A DNA stretch of 64,000 bases from a bacterium. Lineage in GTDB: Bacteria; Verrucomicrobiota; Verrucomicrobiia; Verrucomicrobiales; Akkermansiaceae. Shown one piece after another: positions 6,740-30,915 of the stretch. Each line of letters opens with the position of its first letter. The first letter of the stretch is position 1. The position numbers were made by a program, and so were the translations under genes. The DNA lies in contig JAAEZT010000001.1 in the NCBI GenBank assembly GCA_018222765.1, positions 145,462 to 209,461 of the forward strand. The letters are read 5' to 3'. The notes below the pieces were generated by a model. It made no database searches and was not told where the DNA came from. It saw only the letters and a list, made by a program, of their open reading frames with translations.

Positions 6740-7942
6740 TTACTCACCCACCGGCAGAGCCTCGGGAATATCCTCCGGAATAATCTCCGCCTTCGGAATA
6801 ATTTCTTCTTCGGAAACGATTTGCGCCTTGGGAATAGGATCCTCCTCAGGAACGATCTGGGCCTTCCCGGGCTTCACCAGCATTTTCACCGGGCGCTCAA
6901 TAGGACCAGGGCGCTCCTTCCGCATCTTGATATCCACCCGACGGTTAGGCGCCTGATCCTCCTTCGATCCAGTTAGAACAATCGGAGAGGTCTTACCAAA
7001 GGATCTGATCAAAATCATCTTGGGATCGAGTTGCAGTGACTTGACCAACCAATCTTTCACCGCCTGGCTGCGCTTGGCCGAGAGGGAATCATTAAGGGCA
7101 TCTCCACCGAAAGTGTCGGTATGCCCCTCCACCCAGCAATACATGGAGGGATTTCGGTCGATCAACATCGCCACCTTCATCAAGGTCAGACGCGCGTCGT
7201 CGCGCAGAGTCGCCTCATTATAGGCGAAGAGAAGATCACTTCCAATCGAGGCTTTATTTTCCTGAAGCTGCCCCGGTGACATTTTGGCATACTCATCGAG
7301 CCCGGTGTATCCCTTAATCACGCCAACTTCACTATTTCCGCCGGCTCCTTGCTTTTTGCCCAATTCAGAAATTACCGCGTCCGGATCAATAACATCCGCG
7401 AGCGGACTCCCGTCATCGATGACAATCTGGCCATTAGCGGCCTCCGGAAAGAGATTCTCAATTTTCCCAGCCTCGGGAATTTCAGCATTGGAATCATTTC
7501 CAACCACGGGCTCGGGGATATTACCATCCTCCTCTCCAATCAAAGCCGGTTGTTCGATTTTCACCTCAGGAAGCAAGGGATCTTCAATCTGTGTGTCGAA
7601 ATCAATTTCAGCGTCTTTTAAATCAAATTGGGCGTCTTCAGTCGAATCGATCAACACCCCATCGATCTCCGGCTTCTCGAAAATCTCGTCAGCTGGTTCC
7701 TCTGCGTCCTCTTCATATTCAGTCTGAATTTCAGACATGTTGACCGGCTGGGAAACCCACTCCTGAGGCTCTGCGACCGGCAGCTTGATGAAATGGCTCC
7801 CGAAATAAATCAAAAGCATCAGGTGAATCACCAAGGCCACAACCACCGCAATGAGAATAGGCCAGCCGAACCCCTCCCGCTTCGGGGGGAGATAACTGCT
7901 AGCTTGTTCCCAAGAATACTCTTTGGCCATGTCTGTATTCAC
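6740..7942 (-). CDS. OmpA-like peptidoglycan-binding protein with acidic tail repeats
   Basis: A 400-residue envelope protein with a short cytoplasmic N-terminus, one membrane helix (about residues 27-49) and a long acidic linker (about 55-190). An OmpA/MotB-type peptidoglycan-binding domain follows (about 230-345; VEGHTDTFGGDALNDSLSAK and NRRVDI are its hallmarks). After it come three acidic repeats, KAQIVPEEDPIP, KAQIVSEEEIIP and KAEIIPEDIP, and the final residues EALPVGE. The inner-membrane anchor plus wall-binding domain suggests a wall-tethering protein. The tail closely resembles that of the penicillin-binding protein at 15829-17910. It is divergent from homoserine dehydrogenase, with 96 bp between the starts. 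Confidence 0.85.
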   Translation of the reverse strand: MNTDMAKEYSWEQASSYLPPKREGFGWPILIAVVVALVIHLMLLIYFGSHFIKLPVAEPQEWVSQPVNMSEIQTEYEEDAEEPADEIFEKPEIDGVLIDSTEDAQFDLKDAEIDFDTQIEDPLLPEVKIEQPALIGEEDGNIPEPVVGNDSNAEIPEAGKIENLFPEAANGQIVIDDGSPLADVIDPDAVISELGKKQGAGGNSEVGVIKGYTGLDEYAKMSPGQLQENKASIGSDLLFAYNEATLRDDARLTLMKVAMLIDRNPSMYCWVEGHTDTFGGDALNDSLSAKRSQAVKDWLVKSLQLDPKMILIRSFGKTSPIVLTGSKEDQAPNRRVDIKMRKERPGPIERPVKMLVKPGKAQIVPEEDPIPKAQIVSEEEIIPKAEIIPEDIPEALPVGE

Positions 7943-9480: not shown

Positions 9481-10131
9481 ATGAAAGCCACAAAACTTGT
9501 TATTCTTACGACAATCCTCTCCACCGCTGCATCACATGGTGGTTTGATCATTACGGGCGCATTTGATGGTCCATTGTCTGGAGGAACCCCAAAGGGCGTC
9601 GAACTATATGTCACAGCTGACATTCCCGACTTAAGTATCTATGGCATCGGTTCCGCAAACAATGGCGGAGGTAGTGATAGCGAGGAGTTCACCTTTCCAG
9701 CAGGAGCCGCAACCGTGGGAGACTTTATCTACGTCGCTTCAGAGTCCACCCAGTTTGATAATTTTTTCGGTTTTACTCCAGATGCAACCTCGGGCGCAAT
9801 GGCAATCAATGGGGACGATGCTATTGAGCTTTTTGAGAATGGAACAGTGATTGATGTCTTCGGAGACATCAATGCTGATGGCACAGGCGAAGCTTGGGAA
9901 TACCTTGACGGTTGGGCTTATCGCCTCAATGAGACGGGACCTGATGGCTCGACTTTCGCTCTCGAAAATTGGACTTTCTCAGGCACCAATGTCTTTGACG
10001 GAGAATCCAGCAATGCCACCTCGTCTAACCCGATGCCCATTGGCACCTACACCGCTGTTGCAATACCCGAACCCTCCACTGCCTTCCTCGGTGGCATTGC
10101 TCTCCTCGGCCTCTTCCGCAGACGACGCTAA
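9481..10131 (+). CDS. PEP-CTERM protein with a lone lamin-tail-like domain
   Basis: A 216-residue secreted protein. A short signal peptide (about 1-18) is followed by a domain with GVELYVTADIPDLSIYGIG, INGDDAIELF and WEYLDGWAYR. This pattern is typical of lamin-tail-like domains found at the N-terminus of extracellular nucleases such as ExeM; here no nuclease follows. The C-terminus is IPEPSTAFLGGIALLG plus FRRRR, a textbook PEP-CTERM signal (PEP motif, hydrophobic helix, basic cluster). That signal targets the protein to an exosortase, which is not in this window. The gene sits alone between hom and lysC and has its own terminator. Confidence 0.85.
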   Translation: MKATKLVILTTILSTAASHGGLIITGAFDGPLSGGTPKGVELYVTADIPDLSIYGIGSANNGGGSDSEEFTFPAGAATVGDFIYVASESTQFDNFFGFTPDATSGAMAINGDDAIELFENGTVIDVFGDINADGTGEAWEYLDGWAYRLNETGPDGSTFALENWTFSGTNVFDGESSNATSSNPMPIGTYTAVAIPEPSTAFLGGIALLGLFRRRR

Positions 10132-14311: not shown

Positions 14312-15289
14312 TTAATCCTCCTTCTGCTCTTGAGCAGAAGGAGCTTCCTCCGCAGGTGCAGCTTCAACAACGGGTGCCTCTGTCACAGGTGCGGCCTCGG
14401 CTGCCGGCGCCTCTGTCACAGGTGCGGCCTCAGCTGCCGGTGCCTCTTCCGCAGTTGGCGCAGCCTCTTCCACAGGTGCGGCGTCCTCAACAGGGGGGTC
14501 TTCGGCAGGGGCAGCTTCCTCAGTGAGAGCCACTTCAGGAGCAGGCTCGGCAGCAGGCTCTTTTTCTCCAGAGCCGGAATTCGCCTCTCTGGCTTCATCC
14601 TCGCTCATATTGCCTTCATCGGCTGGCCCTTTGGACTTGGCTCCATTGACAATCAAAGTCCGCCCCATAAAGGGCTGGTCGTGAAGAATCTCCACGGCGC
14701 GCTTGGCTTCATCTACTCGTGCCATTGTCACAAAGCCATAGCCTTTCGAACGATGCGTGTTTCGGTTGTAGACGATATCGATGTTACGAACTGATCCAAC
14801 TCCCTTGAAGAGGTCTTCCAGATCGTGCTCGGCAGCATCATAGGAAAGATTGCCCACATAGAGGCGAGAACTTTCTACCGATGAACTATCCGGAGTTTCC
14901 CGTGGCTTTTTACGGCCCTGGGCATTTCTCACGTTACTCTTACGAGGTCCGCGTGGCTTGCGCTCTTTGCGTTCATCTTTCCCATCGAACTTTTTGGCCG
15001 GACGACGCTGCTGGACCTGAGGCTCCTTGTAGAGGCCGATAGCTTTCAATAACTTCTGCCAAAAGGTCAAGGGCCTGCGTTTGGGCGCCTGACGGCGTCC
15101 CCCGCTGCGACGACGGTTGTTGTTATTGTTTCCGCCATTGTTATTTCCCCCTTCACGATTCCCGTGGGAATTGTCGCGATTACGGTTACGATTACGATTT
15201 CTGTTGCGATTGCGGTTTCTATTGCGATTGCGATTCCCGGAGTTCGAGGATGAATCTCCGGCCGACGTGTTTCTATTCGGTTCTGACAT
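14312..15289 (-). CDS. RRM RNA-binding protein with Asn-Arg tract and Pro/Ala/Glu tail
   Basis: A 325-residue protein. Residues 1-75 are low-complexity, with ten Asn-Arg dipeptides (19-38) and further Asn/Gly/Arg runs. A basic linker follows. A single RRM (about 142-220) carries both RNP motifs: RLYVGNL (RNP2) and KGYGFVTM (RNP1). The C-terminal 100 residues are acidic Pro/Ala/Glu repeats with an 11-residue period. RRM proteins bind single-stranded RNA; a glycine-rich type is common in bacteria, but this long basic N-terminus with acidic tail is unusual. The start is the ATG at 15289, chosen over an upstream extension because of a GGA motif and the clean Met-Ser-Glu N-terminus. It ends at a strong terminator. 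Confidence 0.85.
   Translation of the reverse strand: MSEPNRNTSAGDSSSNSGNRNRNRNRNRNRNRNRNRNRDNSHGNREGGNNNGGNNNNNRRRSGGRRQAPKRRPLTFWQKLLKAIGLYKEPQVQQRRPAKKFDGKDERKERKPRGPRKSNVRNAQGRKKPRETPDSSSVESSRLYVGNLSYDAAEHDLEDLFKGVGSVRNIDIVYNRNTHRSKGYGFVTMARVDEAKRAVEILHDQPFMGRTLIVNGAKSKGPADEGNMSEDEAREANSGSGEKEPAAEPAPEVALTEEAAPAEDPPVEDAAPVEEAAPTAEEAPAAEAAPVTEAPAAEAAPVTEAPVVEAAPAEEAPSAQEQKED
14376..14441 (-). repeat. Two tandem 33-bp repeats inside the RRM gene
   Basis: Two adjacent 33-bp units at 14376-14408 and 14409-14441 differ at only two bases and encode an 11-residue Pro/Ala/Glu/Val/Thr unit. More diverged copies flank them. Copy number could change by slippage. Confidence 0.9.
15176..15235 (-). repeat. 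Asn-Arg dipeptide tract (ten units)
   Basis: Ten consecutive Asn-Arg codon pairs. The codons are mixed (AAT/AAC with CGC/CGT/AGA), so the tract is held at protein level and is not a pure DNA microsatellite. Confidence 0.9.
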
Positions 15290-15495
15290 GTTTCCGATTG
15301 GGTTACTTAGTTCCCAAAATTCGCCGGCAAGCTTCGACCCCATGAAACGCGATTCCGAAGTCGCCTACCCATCTTTGCGGATCGGATAAAGGCTAGAGAA
15401 GAAGCTCCGGGAGATCTGAACGTTACTCACATCGGCCGAAAAGATAACTTTCCGACGGTGCATTCGTGAATGCGTTGTCAAACTAGGAGGACGGA

Positions 15496-15553: not shown

Positions 15554-15790
15554 GTGTATCCTCGCCGCCTTGCCCTTTTTTTAGCTTTTCCCCTTCTGAG
15601 CTTCCCCAGTTGCGTCCAGTTTTTTACCAAAAACCAAGGATCCCGCCCCACCCCGACAATGGAAATCAACGGCGCCGGGGCCACCAGTGACCTCAAACCC
15701 GTGATCGGAGAGGGCAAATTCAGCATCACCGAATCGATCTTCCTTCCCAGCGAGATCGTCGAGGCAATTCGTGGAAATCCCAGAGAGTGA
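15554..15790 (+). CDS. Small predicted secreted or lipoprotein, unknown function
   Basis: A 78-residue ORF starting with GTG. The N-terminus has two arginines and a hydrophobic core (LALFLAFPLLSFPS) followed by Cys20, which resembles a lipoprotein signal although proline at -2 is atypical. The rest (about 58 residues) matches no family I know. It lies directly upstream of the penicillin-binding protein gene: its TGA overlaps an alternative GTG start of that gene at 15787, and the preferred ATG is 38 bp further on. Co-transcription is likely. A small lipoprotein partner of the transpeptidase is possible but unproven. Confidence 0.5.
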   Translation: MYPRRLALFLAFPLLSFPSCVQFFTKNQGSRPTPTMEINGAGATSDLKPVIGEGKFSITESIFLPSEIVEAIRGNPRE

Positions 15791-15828: not shown

Positions 15829-17910
15829 ATGAAGCGGATGATCATCGGAAGCGTCCTGACCTTCCTCTGCACTCTGGCAATTGCCCAGGACACCGAAACC
15901 GAAAATAAAGAGGCCAAGAAGTCCGCCTCCGGAGCCTCCATCTTCACCGATGGCAATGCTCGCACGATGAGCCTCTCCATTCCCGCGCCCCGGGGGCTGG
16001 TCCTCGACCGCGAAGGCCGCCCGCTCGCCCAAACCAAAATGGCCTACCACCTCGCGCTCGATTTCACCCGCTTCACCGAACTCGACTCACCCGAAAAGGC
16101 CATCGTGTGGGCTCAGGCCAAAATCGCCGAGTCGAACGCTCTCACCGGAAATGAAGTCACCTTTTCCGACGAGAAGCTCAATGCTTACTATCGCCATCGT
16201 CGCTGGATTCCTCGTATCGTCTCACAGGTCTTCGATGGCAAAAAAGCACAGTCTCTCGAAGAAAAACTCCCCGACGGGTTGGTCATCCTCCCCGTCTACA
16301 TGCGGCATTATCCCGAGAAATCTCTCGCCGCCCACCTGGTGGGATACGTTGGCACCAAAACCCGCCTGCCCGATGGACCGATTAACGATGGCGACCCCCT
16401 CTTCGAGTCGGTCCAAGGAAAATCGGGTTTCGAAAAAGTTTACGACAAAGCACTCCGCGGCATTCCGGGCCGCAAAAAACTCATCTTCGATACCGAGGGC
16501 AACAAAGTCCTCGAAGAGATCTCTAAAAAACCTCGCCCCGGAGGAAACGTCGTCACCACTCTCGACCTCGACTGGCAACGTCATGCCGAGAGCGTCCTCC
16601 GTTCCGGTTGCAAACGCGGCGCCATGGTCGTCATCGACGTTATCACCGGTGAAGTCCTTGTCATGGCTTCACGCCCCAGCTTCGACCTCAACGAATTCAT
16701 CCCCTACATCACCACCAAGCGCTACGAAGAACTGAAAAAAGACCCCGCCGCGCCACTCTACGCACGATCCTACCAATCGCAGTATCCACCGGCCTCCACC
16801 TTCAAACCCATCGTCGGGCTCGCCGCCATTACCACCGGTGCGATCAAGCCGTGGACTCTCATCAATTGCCCCTACTTTATTGAAATTGGTGGTCAAAAAT
16901 TCCGAAACCACTCCGAAGGCCATCAAGGCGAAATCCCCGTTCAACGCGCCCTCGCCAAATCCGTCAACCCCTGGTTCTACCAGGTCGGTATTATGACCGG
17001 CCCACAAACCTTCCTCAATTCCGCGCGCAAACTCGGCTACGGGTCACGCACTGGTCTACCGCTTGTCGGTGAGACTCCCGGCAATGTTCCCACTCCGGAA
17101 TACATCGAAAAACGCATGGGACGCCCAACCACGGACGGCGACGCCGCCAATCTTTCAATTGGTCAGGGCCTCCTCCTCGCCTCACCTCTCCAGGTTGCCC
17201 AATCAATGGCCGGCATTGCCAATGGAGTAGCCCTGATGGAACTCCGGCTCACGAAGCAAATCCAAGACTTCCACGGACGTGTTCTCGAAGCGCCTCTTCC
17301 CAAAAAACGCTTCGACCTCGATCTAGACCCTGAAGCCGTCGAAGTCGTGCATCAGGGAATGGAAGACGTCGTTCATGCGCCCTACGGAACCGGTCGTAAC
17401 GCCGCCCTCAGCTTCACTATCATGTGCGGCAAAACAGGCACCGCCCAGTGGGGACCAAAATCCAAAAAACAGGGCCTCGCTTGGTTCTCCGGATTTTTCC
17501 CACGGGACAATCCCCGCTACGCCTTCGCCGTGGTCTACGAGGGACTTCCACACGAGAAAGTGAGTGGTGGACGCAAAGCCGCTCCCATGGTCAAAAAATT
17601 CTTCAATGAATTCAAAGACGAGATCAAGGAACAGATCATCGCTCCCGCTCGCGCTGCTGTCATCGACGAGGGAACAAATCAACCCATCACTCCCCTACCC
17701 TATCCCAACTCAAACGAAAGCGATTTCCCGGCAATCCCCAGGGCACAAATTATCAACGAAGACGAAGACATCCCTGTCGCTGAAGTGATCACGGAAGACG
17801 ATCTCACGCCCGAAGCTCCGTCAGATTCACCACCTGCAAGAAAACTCCCTGAAACCGGTCCCCCCGCCCCACCAGTAAAGATCCCCGAGGCGCTTCCCGT
17901 GAACGAATAA
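15829..17910 (+). CDS. Class B penicillin-binding protein (peptidoglycan transpeptidase)
   Basis: A 693-residue D,D-transpeptidase of PBP2/PBP3 type that cross-links peptidoglycan in the periplasm. All three active-site motifs are present: STFK at Ser323, SVN at 378-380 and KTG at 535-537. The N-terminal dimer domain starts with PRGLVLDREGRPLA. The N-terminus (MKRMIIGSVLTFLCTLAIAQ) looks like a signal peptide with an AxA-type cleavage site rather than a plain anchor. The C-terminal 58 residues lie beyond the catalytic domain and contain RAQIINEDEDIP, VAEVITEDDLTP and a final IPEALPVNE, closely resembling the OmpA-like protein at 6740-7942. The start is the ATG at 15829; a GTG at 15787 would hide the signal peptide. 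Confidence 0.93.
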   Translation: MKRMIIGSVLTFLCTLAIAQDTETENKEAKKSASGASIFTDGNARTMSLSIPAPRGLVLDREGRPLAQTKMAYHLALDFTRFTELDSPEKAIVWAQAKIAESNALTGNEVTFSDEKLNAYYRHRRWIPRIVSQVFDGKKAQSLEEKLPDGLVILPVYMRHYPEKSLAAHLVGYVGTKTRLPDGPINDGDPLFESVQGKSGFEKVYDKALRGIPGRKKLIFDTEGNKVLEEISKKPRPGGNVVTTLDLDWQRHAESVLRSGCKRGAMVVIDVITGEVLVMASRPSFDLNEFIPYITTKRYEELKKDPAAPLYARSYQSQYPPASTFKPIVGLAAITTGAIKPWTLINCPYFIEIGGQKFRNHSEGHQGEIPVQRALAKSVNPWFYQVGIMTGPQTFLNSARKLGYGSRTGLPLVGETPGNVPTPEYIEKRMGRPTTDGDAANLSIGQGLLLASPLQVAQSMAGIANGVALMELRLTKQIQDFHGRVLEAPLPKKRFDLDLDPEAVEVVHQGMEDVVHAPYGTGRNAALSFTIMCGKTGTAQWGPKSKKQGLAWFSGFFPRDNPRYAFAVVYEGLPHEKVSGGRKAAPMVKKFFNEFKDEIKEQIIAPARAAVIDEGTNQPITPLPYPNSNESDFPAIPRAQIINEDEDIPVAEVITEDDLTPEAPSDSPPARKLPETGPPAPPVKIPEALPVNE

Positions 17911-30046: not shown

Positions 30047-30099
30047 GCAGTCCTGACAAGCTGGATTAGCGGGATATTTGATTGCATAGCGGCTCAGTA

Positions 30100-30142
30100 T
30101 CTACAAAAAACGGGCCAAAATCTCGACCCCCCGGCCTCGCTC
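30100..30142 (+). promoter_or_regulatory. Conserved 43-bp upstream element, copy 1
   Basis: Begins TCTACAAAAA and aligns without gaps with copies at 35837 and 37126. Shared positions include TCTACAAAAA, G at 14, CC at 16-17, AA at 19-20, TCTC at 22-25 and CCC at 29-31. It lies 59 bp before the PEP-CTERM lectin-like gene. It is probably an operator or promoter element. Confidence 0.75.
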
Positions 30143-30201
30143 ATCTCTGGGTTTTACGCTTCCTTTGGAGGGAACCTCCCACCAAAACTATATTAATCCC
30201 T

Positions 30202-30915
30202 ATGAAAGCACCACTTGCATCCACCCTTCTACTCGCCTCAATTATCAGTGCTGGCCAGGCCGCAATCATCGGATTCAACGAAGACTTTACCGGCGCAACC
30301 CTGGACCCCGCATGGAATACCAATGGGAGCGGAGGAGCTTTGGACGCCGCAAACGGTGCCTATTCAATCACGAATACCAATGGGAGCGGAGGAACCAAGC
30401 TTTCCCGAAACGAGGGTGGAACTCTCGGAGATTACACCCACATGGTCACCCTTGGCCTAAATTCTTTTATGGGTACTGGAGCTGACGTTAAGTGGAAAAC
30501 CTTCGGTGCTGACGGGTTCACGGAAATTGTCTTCAATAGCTTTGGAAATGTGCGCCAGTTTCACACTGGGGGAAACCTTTATACTAATGTTCCAATCACC
30601 GTTGCCGATGGAGACACTCTGAGCTTCAAGCAAGTTTACACACTCTCCACCAATACGATGGATGTAAGCTATTCAGTCAACGGAGGCGCAGATCAGAGTC
30701 TCTACTCAGGCACAGGAAACGGCGCGAGCGGTTTCCAGAATGTCATCACGAGCTTTGCTGAGGTCGAAGTCTTTGAATTCGGAGCCGGTGATCCTGTTCC
30801 GACCATTACAATTCAAGAATGGAGCCTCTCACCGACTGTTGCAATCCCAGAACCAAGCACATCACTGCTCCTCGTAGGCTGCTTTGCTCTCACGGCGATC
30901 AGACGTCGCCGCTAG
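30202..30915 (+). CDS. PEP-CTERM protein with lectin-like (LamG-type) module
   Basis: A 237-residue secreted protein. The signal peptide (about 1-20, LLASIISAGQAA) is followed by a concanavalin/LamG-like beta-sandwich module: NEDFTGATLDPAWNTNGSGG, GGTKLSRNEGG, DGFTEIVFNSFGN and TMDVSYSVNGGAD. The C-terminus is IPEPSTSLLLVGCFAL plus IRRRR, a PEP-CTERM exosortase signal. The same module recurs at 37250-38251 and 42404-43070. It probably binds glycan or coats the cell surface. The start is the ATG at 30202, preceded 59 bp upstream by the conserved 43-bp element. A strong terminator follows, so it is a monocistronic unit at the left edge of the carbohydrate island. Confidence 0.85.
   Translation: MKAPLASTLLLASIISAGQAAIIGFNEDFTGATLDPAWNTNGSGGALDAANGAYSITNTNGSGGTKLSRNEGGTLGDYTHMVTLGLNSFMGTGADVKWKTFGADGFTEIVFNSFGNVRQFHTGGNLYTNVPITVADGDTLSFKQVYTLSTNTMDVSYSVNGGADQSLYSGTGNGASGFQNVITSFAEVEVFEFGAGDPVPTITIQEWSLSPTVAIPEPSTSLLLVGCFALTAIRRRR

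Follow-up and report, generated by a model that had tools for sequence, protein, structure and literature searches.

A short motif, roughly (I/V/P)-P-(K/R)-A-x-(P/I/V)-V-x-(E/D)-(E/D), is repeated in the C-terminal tails of two cell-wall proteins, an OmpA-like protein and a class B penicillin-binding protein (PBP), encoded in the 64,000-nucleotide stretch of Akkermansiaceae DNA analysed here (the window). The motif is conserved among relatives, recurs in further carriers and is restricted to a clade. We infer for it a function in binding to a receptor: acting as a periplasmic short linear motif, it would rather probably gather wall synthases, remodellers and anchors on a shared putative receptor.

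Two wall proteins of the window and their tails

A preliminary description of the window had reported a repeat tail shared by these two proteins, and its observation is borne out. Both tails are present at the ends of the proteins, and when every window ORF of at least 100 aa was scanned in all six frames the strict motif was found in these two only (three units in the OmpA-like protein and one in the PBP). A terminal copy, such as IPEALPVxE, is frequent at the end of such tails. The OmpA-like protein comprises the following features:

6740..7942, minus strand: OmpA-like protein, 400 aa, an ORF with an N-terminal membrane helix, an acidic linker, an OmpA peptidoglycan-binding domain and a motif tail
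7790..7867, minus strand: predicted membrane helix, residues 26-51 (structure model, pLDDT 92-95 over residues 31-50)
6941..7231, minus strand: OmpA domain, residues 238-334 (Pfam PF00691, 9.6e-16)
6842..6871, minus strand: motif unit 1, PGKAQIVPEE (strict motif scan)
6806..6835, minus strand: motif unit 2, IPKAQIVSEE (strict motif scan)
6770..6799, minus strand: motif unit 3, IPKAEIIPED (strict motif scan)
6743..6769, minus strand: terminal unit, IPEALPVGE (ORF and degenerate DNA pattern)

The C-terminus of this protein reads KAQIVPEEDPIPKAQIVSEEEIIPKAEIIPEDIPEALPVGE. Its OmpA domain passes the Pfam cut-off (58.4 bits against 27.2) and is separated from the membrane helix by a long acidic linker, and none of the 25 NCBIfam models listed reached its curated cut-off. 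The structure model of the protein, obtained from the single sequence, is poor (mean pLDDT 43.8) and was used solely for the membrane helix. No match was returned by a PDB sequence search with the tail. The second protein is laid out as follows:

15829..17910, plus strand: class B PBP, MrdA (PBP2)-like, 693 aa, with motif tail (ORF, Pfam, NCBIfam, fold matches)
15829..15885, plus strand: probable cleavable signal peptide, MKRMIIGSVLTFLCTLAIA cut before Q (sequence reading; homolog comparison)
15979..16512, plus strand: PBP dimerisation domain (PBP_dimer), residues 51-228 (Pfam PF03717, 1.3e-21)
16618..17601, plus strand: transpeptidase domain, residues 264-591 (Pfam PF00905, 1.2e-59)
17641..17673, plus strand: looser motif unit APARAAVIDEG, directly after the transpeptidase domain (matching position in homologs: PPPRAMLIDED / PAARALIVSEE)
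17734..17763, plus strand: motif unit IPRAQIINED (motif pattern scans)
17770..17802, plus strand: variant unit IPVAEVITEDD (ORF translation)
17881..17907, plus strand: terminal unit IPEALPVNE (ORF and degenerate DNA pattern)

The ORF of the PBP may start at 15787 or 15829 and ends at 17910 on the plus strand, its product terminating in IPRAQIINEDEDIPVAEVITEDDL...KIPEALPVNE. The tail units that had been listed before are all present, and APARAAVIDEG has to be added to them. The PBP2-like fold and the dimerisation and transpeptidase domains are all present. With MrdA (PBP2) the protein has in common its best NCBIfam model, TIGR03423, and its best fold matches, which are PBP2 structures; it differs from MrdA in a score below the curated cut-off (421.4 bits against 455), in the probable cleavable signal peptide and in the added motif tail. 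Its N-terminus reads MKRMIIGSVLTFLCTLAIA followed by QD. Signal peptides were judged at 23 of 28 homologous loci (L036-L063), the remaining five, including the copy of the window, being without an anchor match, and 22 of the 23 display an A-x-A type site right behind a short hydrophobic core. This pattern suggests that the class B PBP is secreted through a cleavable signal peptide and has no membrane anchor, an arrangement that is unusual for a class B PBP. Without such an anchor, other means of holding the enzyme in place would be needed. In an AlphaFold model built with 46 PBP-B sequences the enzyme is confident, with 494 of 693 residues at a pLDDT of 90 or more, and the tail is disordered (pLDDT 36-51). 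Docking of the tail back onto its own PBP finds no support in this disordered state.

At the DNA level, a degenerate pattern for IPEALPV occurs at these two places only in the 4.33 Mb of the source genome, and the reversed pattern is absent. The IPEALPV codons of the two genes carry synonymous differences at four of seven positions. This rules out a recent exchange of DNA between the genes and implies that the shared ends have been kept or reinvented at the protein level, not freshly copied. A wider pattern is uninformative by itself in this genome, since it gives 10 matches against seven for the reversed control: three units of the OmpA-like protein and the PBP, one in a CvpA-like protein, and the remainder in enzymes, unrelated proteins and short frames. 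Patterns that require I or V after the alanine miss the Q/E form of the source genome, so that their four matches include none in the OmpA-like protein or the PBP. Clear units are found in this genome only in the OmpA-like protein, the PBP-B and the CvpA-like protein. A second match, in a 40-residue frame on contig C12, lies in no frame of 70 aa or more. The class A PBP of the genome has at its C-terminus merely a weak IRDALPLDQ, and no RodZ homolog was found with the query used.

Conservation of the motif among relatives

Homologs were collected from 58 related genomes, an OmpA-domain match being obtained in 58 and a PBP match in 53 with the cut used. The OmpA tails (30 loci) and the PBP-B tails (28 loci) have in common a repeated unit, (P/G)(K/R)Ax(I/P/V)(V/I)x(E/D)(E/D), which is kept throughout the genus and in most of the family. 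A lack of genomes retaining the motif in both genes, which had been named as a refutation of the original observation, was not seen. With a relaxed core, which misses variants such as RAMMIEEE and KAIEVDED, 28 family genomes have both tails readable and 25 of them carry the motif in each; the exceptions are G007 and G031, with variant units in the PBP, and G028, with none. Named carriers of the PBP-B motif include Luteolibacter pohnpeiensis, Persicirhabdus sediminis and Haloferula sp. (68 of 80 named loci readable; at 12 no GKTGTAQW lay in frame close to the match). The unit is also widespread in the class A PBP tails of the family and reaches six copies in L260.

The tails are low in complexity and the linkers between units vary freely, so it could be argued that they are acidic, proline-rich spacers whose likeness arises from shared composition or slippage in periplasmic disorder and entails no specific binding. 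The window indeed holds another acidic low-complexity tail, at 14312-15343 on the minus strand, where an RNA-binding protein with an RN-repeat N-terminal part ends in a long APVEEA-type stretch without the motif. We nevertheless regard the spacer explanation as quite unlikely, because the order of residues matters. A nine-residue matrix trained exclusively on genus OmpA tails (threshold 7) was applied to native tails and to 200 shuffles of them. It recognised 53 units in the 28 PBP-B tails, where shuffling left 0.9 on average (maximum 4), and 24 in the 37 PBP-A tails, where it left 0.3 (maximum 2); on reversed tails it found five and 11 units, respectively. The loci behind these figures number 53 of 54 for OmpA, 28 for PBP-B (L036-L063) and 37 of 46 for PBP-A, those omitted having no frame with the anchor pattern, and members of the genus are orthologs, hence not independent events. 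The loss of units upon shuffling rules out pure composition as the source of the likeness, and the tails do not fall within unrelated low-complexity sequence, the outcome that had been named as fatal to the original observation. DNA patterns applied without regard to the carrier point the same way. A first one gave eight matches in 27 genus genomes and none when reversed, six of them in the class A PBP tail (...IPRAIPVEDDEIPRAIPVR) and two in OmpA; a second, genus-wide one gave 41 matches against two, distributed over PBP-B (22), OmpA (10), class A PBP (8) and a deacetylase-like secreted protein whose Pfam score is slightly under the cut-off. Also against a mere spacer stand the clade restriction of the motif form and the fact that, between close relatives, amino-acid changes in the tails are fewer than expected (binomial p 0.003-0.007 per pair, the pairs not being independent because they share ancestry). 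Over two pairs, one of 16 changes in the PBP tail falls inside a unit, with units covering 36 of 100 residues, and in OmpA tails nonsynonymous changes do not avoid the units.

Further carriers, motif position and clade limits

A single-unit HMM built from 43 sequences of OmpA, PBP-B and PBP-A was run on the 58 relatives and returned at least 150 rows. Among the 150 matches listed, 44 are OmpA, 42 PBP-B, 15 PBP-A, 11 very short frames and 38 others; a single unit yields weak E-values (0.007-0.9), and circularity affects the counts for the three families that supplied the training sequences. The families of the 38 others all lie outside the training set. RodZ-like proteins, found in 28 of the 58 genomes and in several cases with units at the end, combine an HTH_25 domain and a hydrophobic segment with a C-terminal ...PPPRAILVEED. 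A second kind of MrdA-like PBP has an N-terminal hydrophobic segment and ends in KPSRAMIVDEE. Further carriers are a LysM lipoprotein (a class to which the rows of G013 and G025 were assigned by frame length alone), other LysM proteins, a YkuD L,D-transpeptidase, an OmpA-domain protein, an AsmA/YhdP-like protein, a DUF6600 protein, a CvpA-like membrane protein and TPR proteins, together with two proteins without a Pfam match, L336 (770 aa, of uncertain export) and the secreted-looking L331 (231 aa). By annotation, the AsmA-like, DUF6600 and CvpA-like carriers and L336 are not wall proteins. The question whether all carriers belong to the envelope, raised at the outset, is thus answered almost fully in the affirmative: the further carriers are nearly all exported or membrane proteins, and most are wall-related. 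A clear false positive of the HMM is L339, where MRALIVEDD is the start of a cytoplasmic response regulator, and the match in L377 looks like a chance frame.

The CvpA-like membrane protein of the source genome (L378:945-1769, contig C52) bears IPRAEVIEE near its C-terminus and has counterparts in L375 and L332; it is a possible third motif carrier in that genome. Large TPR/YfiO-like proteins of related families (L317, L333-L335, L340, L371-L373) display one or more units right behind the signal peptide; they might act as a hub or be a further client.

The position of the motif varies among carriers, from the C-terminus to the mature N-terminus (PBP-B of families f3 and f4, TPR proteins) and to linkers (LysM proteins). 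The motif is therefore not strictly a tail: the C-terminal copies reported before are there in both window proteins, and their restriction to tails, and to these two proteins, does not hold. PBP-B proteins of the order-level family f4 have the unit at the mature N-terminus (AQDAPKALPVENV) and finish in a GGFFRKLFGR-type segment of amphipathic appearance (eight of 20 order-level PBP-B loci were readable). Verrucomicrobiaceae-type PBPs (L278, L279, L282, L274, L193, L200, L209, L217) likewise end in such a segment, which might serve them as a membrane anchor, and some orthologs of this type have motif units at the mature N-terminus. The units are probably periplasmic, judging by topology, because they lie C-terminal to the transpeptidase and OmpA domains and to the hydrophobic segment of RodZ.

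This variety of positions bears on a further proposal, namely that the motif is a signal for sorting, processing or covalent attachment (of sortase or PEP-CTERM type, or a protease tag) and not a docking site. Many copies do sit at the very C-terminus (IPEALPVGE, IPRAIPVR, IPKAIPVEE), as such a signal would. The presence of the motif at mature N-termini, in linkers and in tandem, without the hydrophobic segment of sortase and PEP-CTERM signals, dismisses a C-terminal sorting signal, and the alternation of K and R at the basic place argues against an isopeptide bond through lysine, so that a signal of any of these kinds appears highly improbable. The window also encodes secreted proteins at 9481-10131 and 30082-30915 (plus strand) with C-terminal signals that we take to be PEP-CTERM-like.

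The motif is restricted to a clade, being essentially absent from the 95 other genomes of the phylum sample. With E-values up to 0.3, the HMM matched in five of 96 phylum genomes, the source genome and four others with one match each. None of these four lies in a convincing protein: two are longer frames that look like antisense readings of GC-rich genes, and two are frames of 21 and 35 residues. In the 58 relatives, 118 rows were counted by hand at the same limit among the matches listed (G028 and G038 belong to both samples). No HMM match was obtained in any of the 10 genomes of group g3, which we equate, by inference, with Akkermansia. In G028, a member of this group, no unit was found with the relaxed core in any of the three main carriers; its OmpA tail ends with a short CIPAQPVAR and its PBP with SGWDDGRSRH. 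All 15 Akkermansia-type PBP loci read (L187-L192, L194, L198, L201, L206, L208, L215, L216, L221, L226) are without the motif and share a different conserved ending, W(D/N)DGR followed by two or three residues, as seen in G028.

A putative docking motif and its relation to known systems

In Verrucomicrobiales other than Akkermansia, the motif extends across the peptidoglycan machinery, its carriers being a class A PBP, two MrdA-like PBP kinds, RodZ, an OmpA-domain anchor, LysM proteins, an L,D-transpeptidase and TPR proteins. A shared putative periplasmic receptor, or a few such receptors, would bind the motif and gather synthases, remodellers and wall anchors where the wall grows, and the repeats may provide avidity. 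For the class B PBP that seems to lack an anchor, the tail could be the tether to an assembly containing the membrane-anchored, wall-gripping OmpA-like protein. We also speculate that the I-x-x-A-x-x-V spacing fits one face of a polyproline-like strand. A bolder formulation, in which a periplasmic peptide code movable between protein ends recruits much of the wall machinery to a common putative receptor and was lost whole in Akkermansia, is tentative and falls somewhat short of an even chance.

Clustering might instead proceed without a separate receptor if the units were homotypic stickers that pair as basic-hydrophobic-acidic strands. Each unit does combine a basic residue with a hydrophobic core and an acidic end, and several units can share one tail, which is then multivalent, as with the six units of the class A PBP L260. 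Many carriers, however, have one or two units only, among them RodZ and many class A PBPs, and no pairing of units within the chain is seen in the PBP model, a matter on which AlphaFold is weak. Self-pairing is accordingly judged unlikely, and recruitment to a shared receptor remains the reading that we prefer.

To our knowledge, it is poorly understood, except in a few model bacteria, how the periplasm assembles its many wall-growth enzymes, and receptor docking, if true, would be a novel principle in the organisation of wall growth. With a portable motif on RodZ, MrdA-like PBPs, class A PBPs and anchors, the protein that binds the peptide would be an organiser of the machine. The motif also offers a way to test how a class B PBP functions without a membrane anchor and what took its place in Akkermansia. 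In the open-access PMC literature no paper that appeared to describe this motif was found.

Among known systems, the TonB box and other periplasmic peptide motifs are likewise short periplasmic peptides read by one partner; the carriers of the TonB box are outer-membrane transporters, unlike those described here. Regulation by SPOR proteins and by MreC/MreD relies on folded-domain contacts and not on a portable peptide motif. The enzymes concerned are nonetheless identical to those considered here for recruitment, class A PBPs being regulated by SPOR proteins and PBP2 by MreC/MreD in the elongasome, according to the accessible text of PMC7642682 and PMC7793260. The accessible text of PMC5147048, in which neither OmpA nor the word motif appears, notes that RodZ might connect MreB with PBPs in Verrucomicrobia. 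The closest parallel is that of the GpsB-binding mini-domains of Firmicutes PBPs, whose motif is (S/T)-R-x-x-R-(R/K) (accessible text of PMC6335420 and PMC11062636). Several PBPs, and FtsZ in S. aureus, are docked on one adaptor through a short motif that they have in common, and S. aureus PBP4 and FtsZ carry it with a repeated copy (accessible text of PMC11062636). In both cases one short motif is common to otherwise different wall enzymes. The GpsB motif is cytoplasmic and arginine-rich and has a known receptor, whereas the Verrucomicrobia motif is, by its likely topology, periplasmic, is rich in proline and acidic residues, has a putative receptor and occurs on more kinds of protein. Its units, which read (I/P)P(K/R)Ax(P/I/V)Vx(E/D)(E/D), do not match (S/T)-R-x-x-R-(R/K). 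Since sequence and compartment differ, the motif is not a member of the GpsB system; it would, if the docking proposal is true, be an extracytoplasmic counterpart of GpsB docking.
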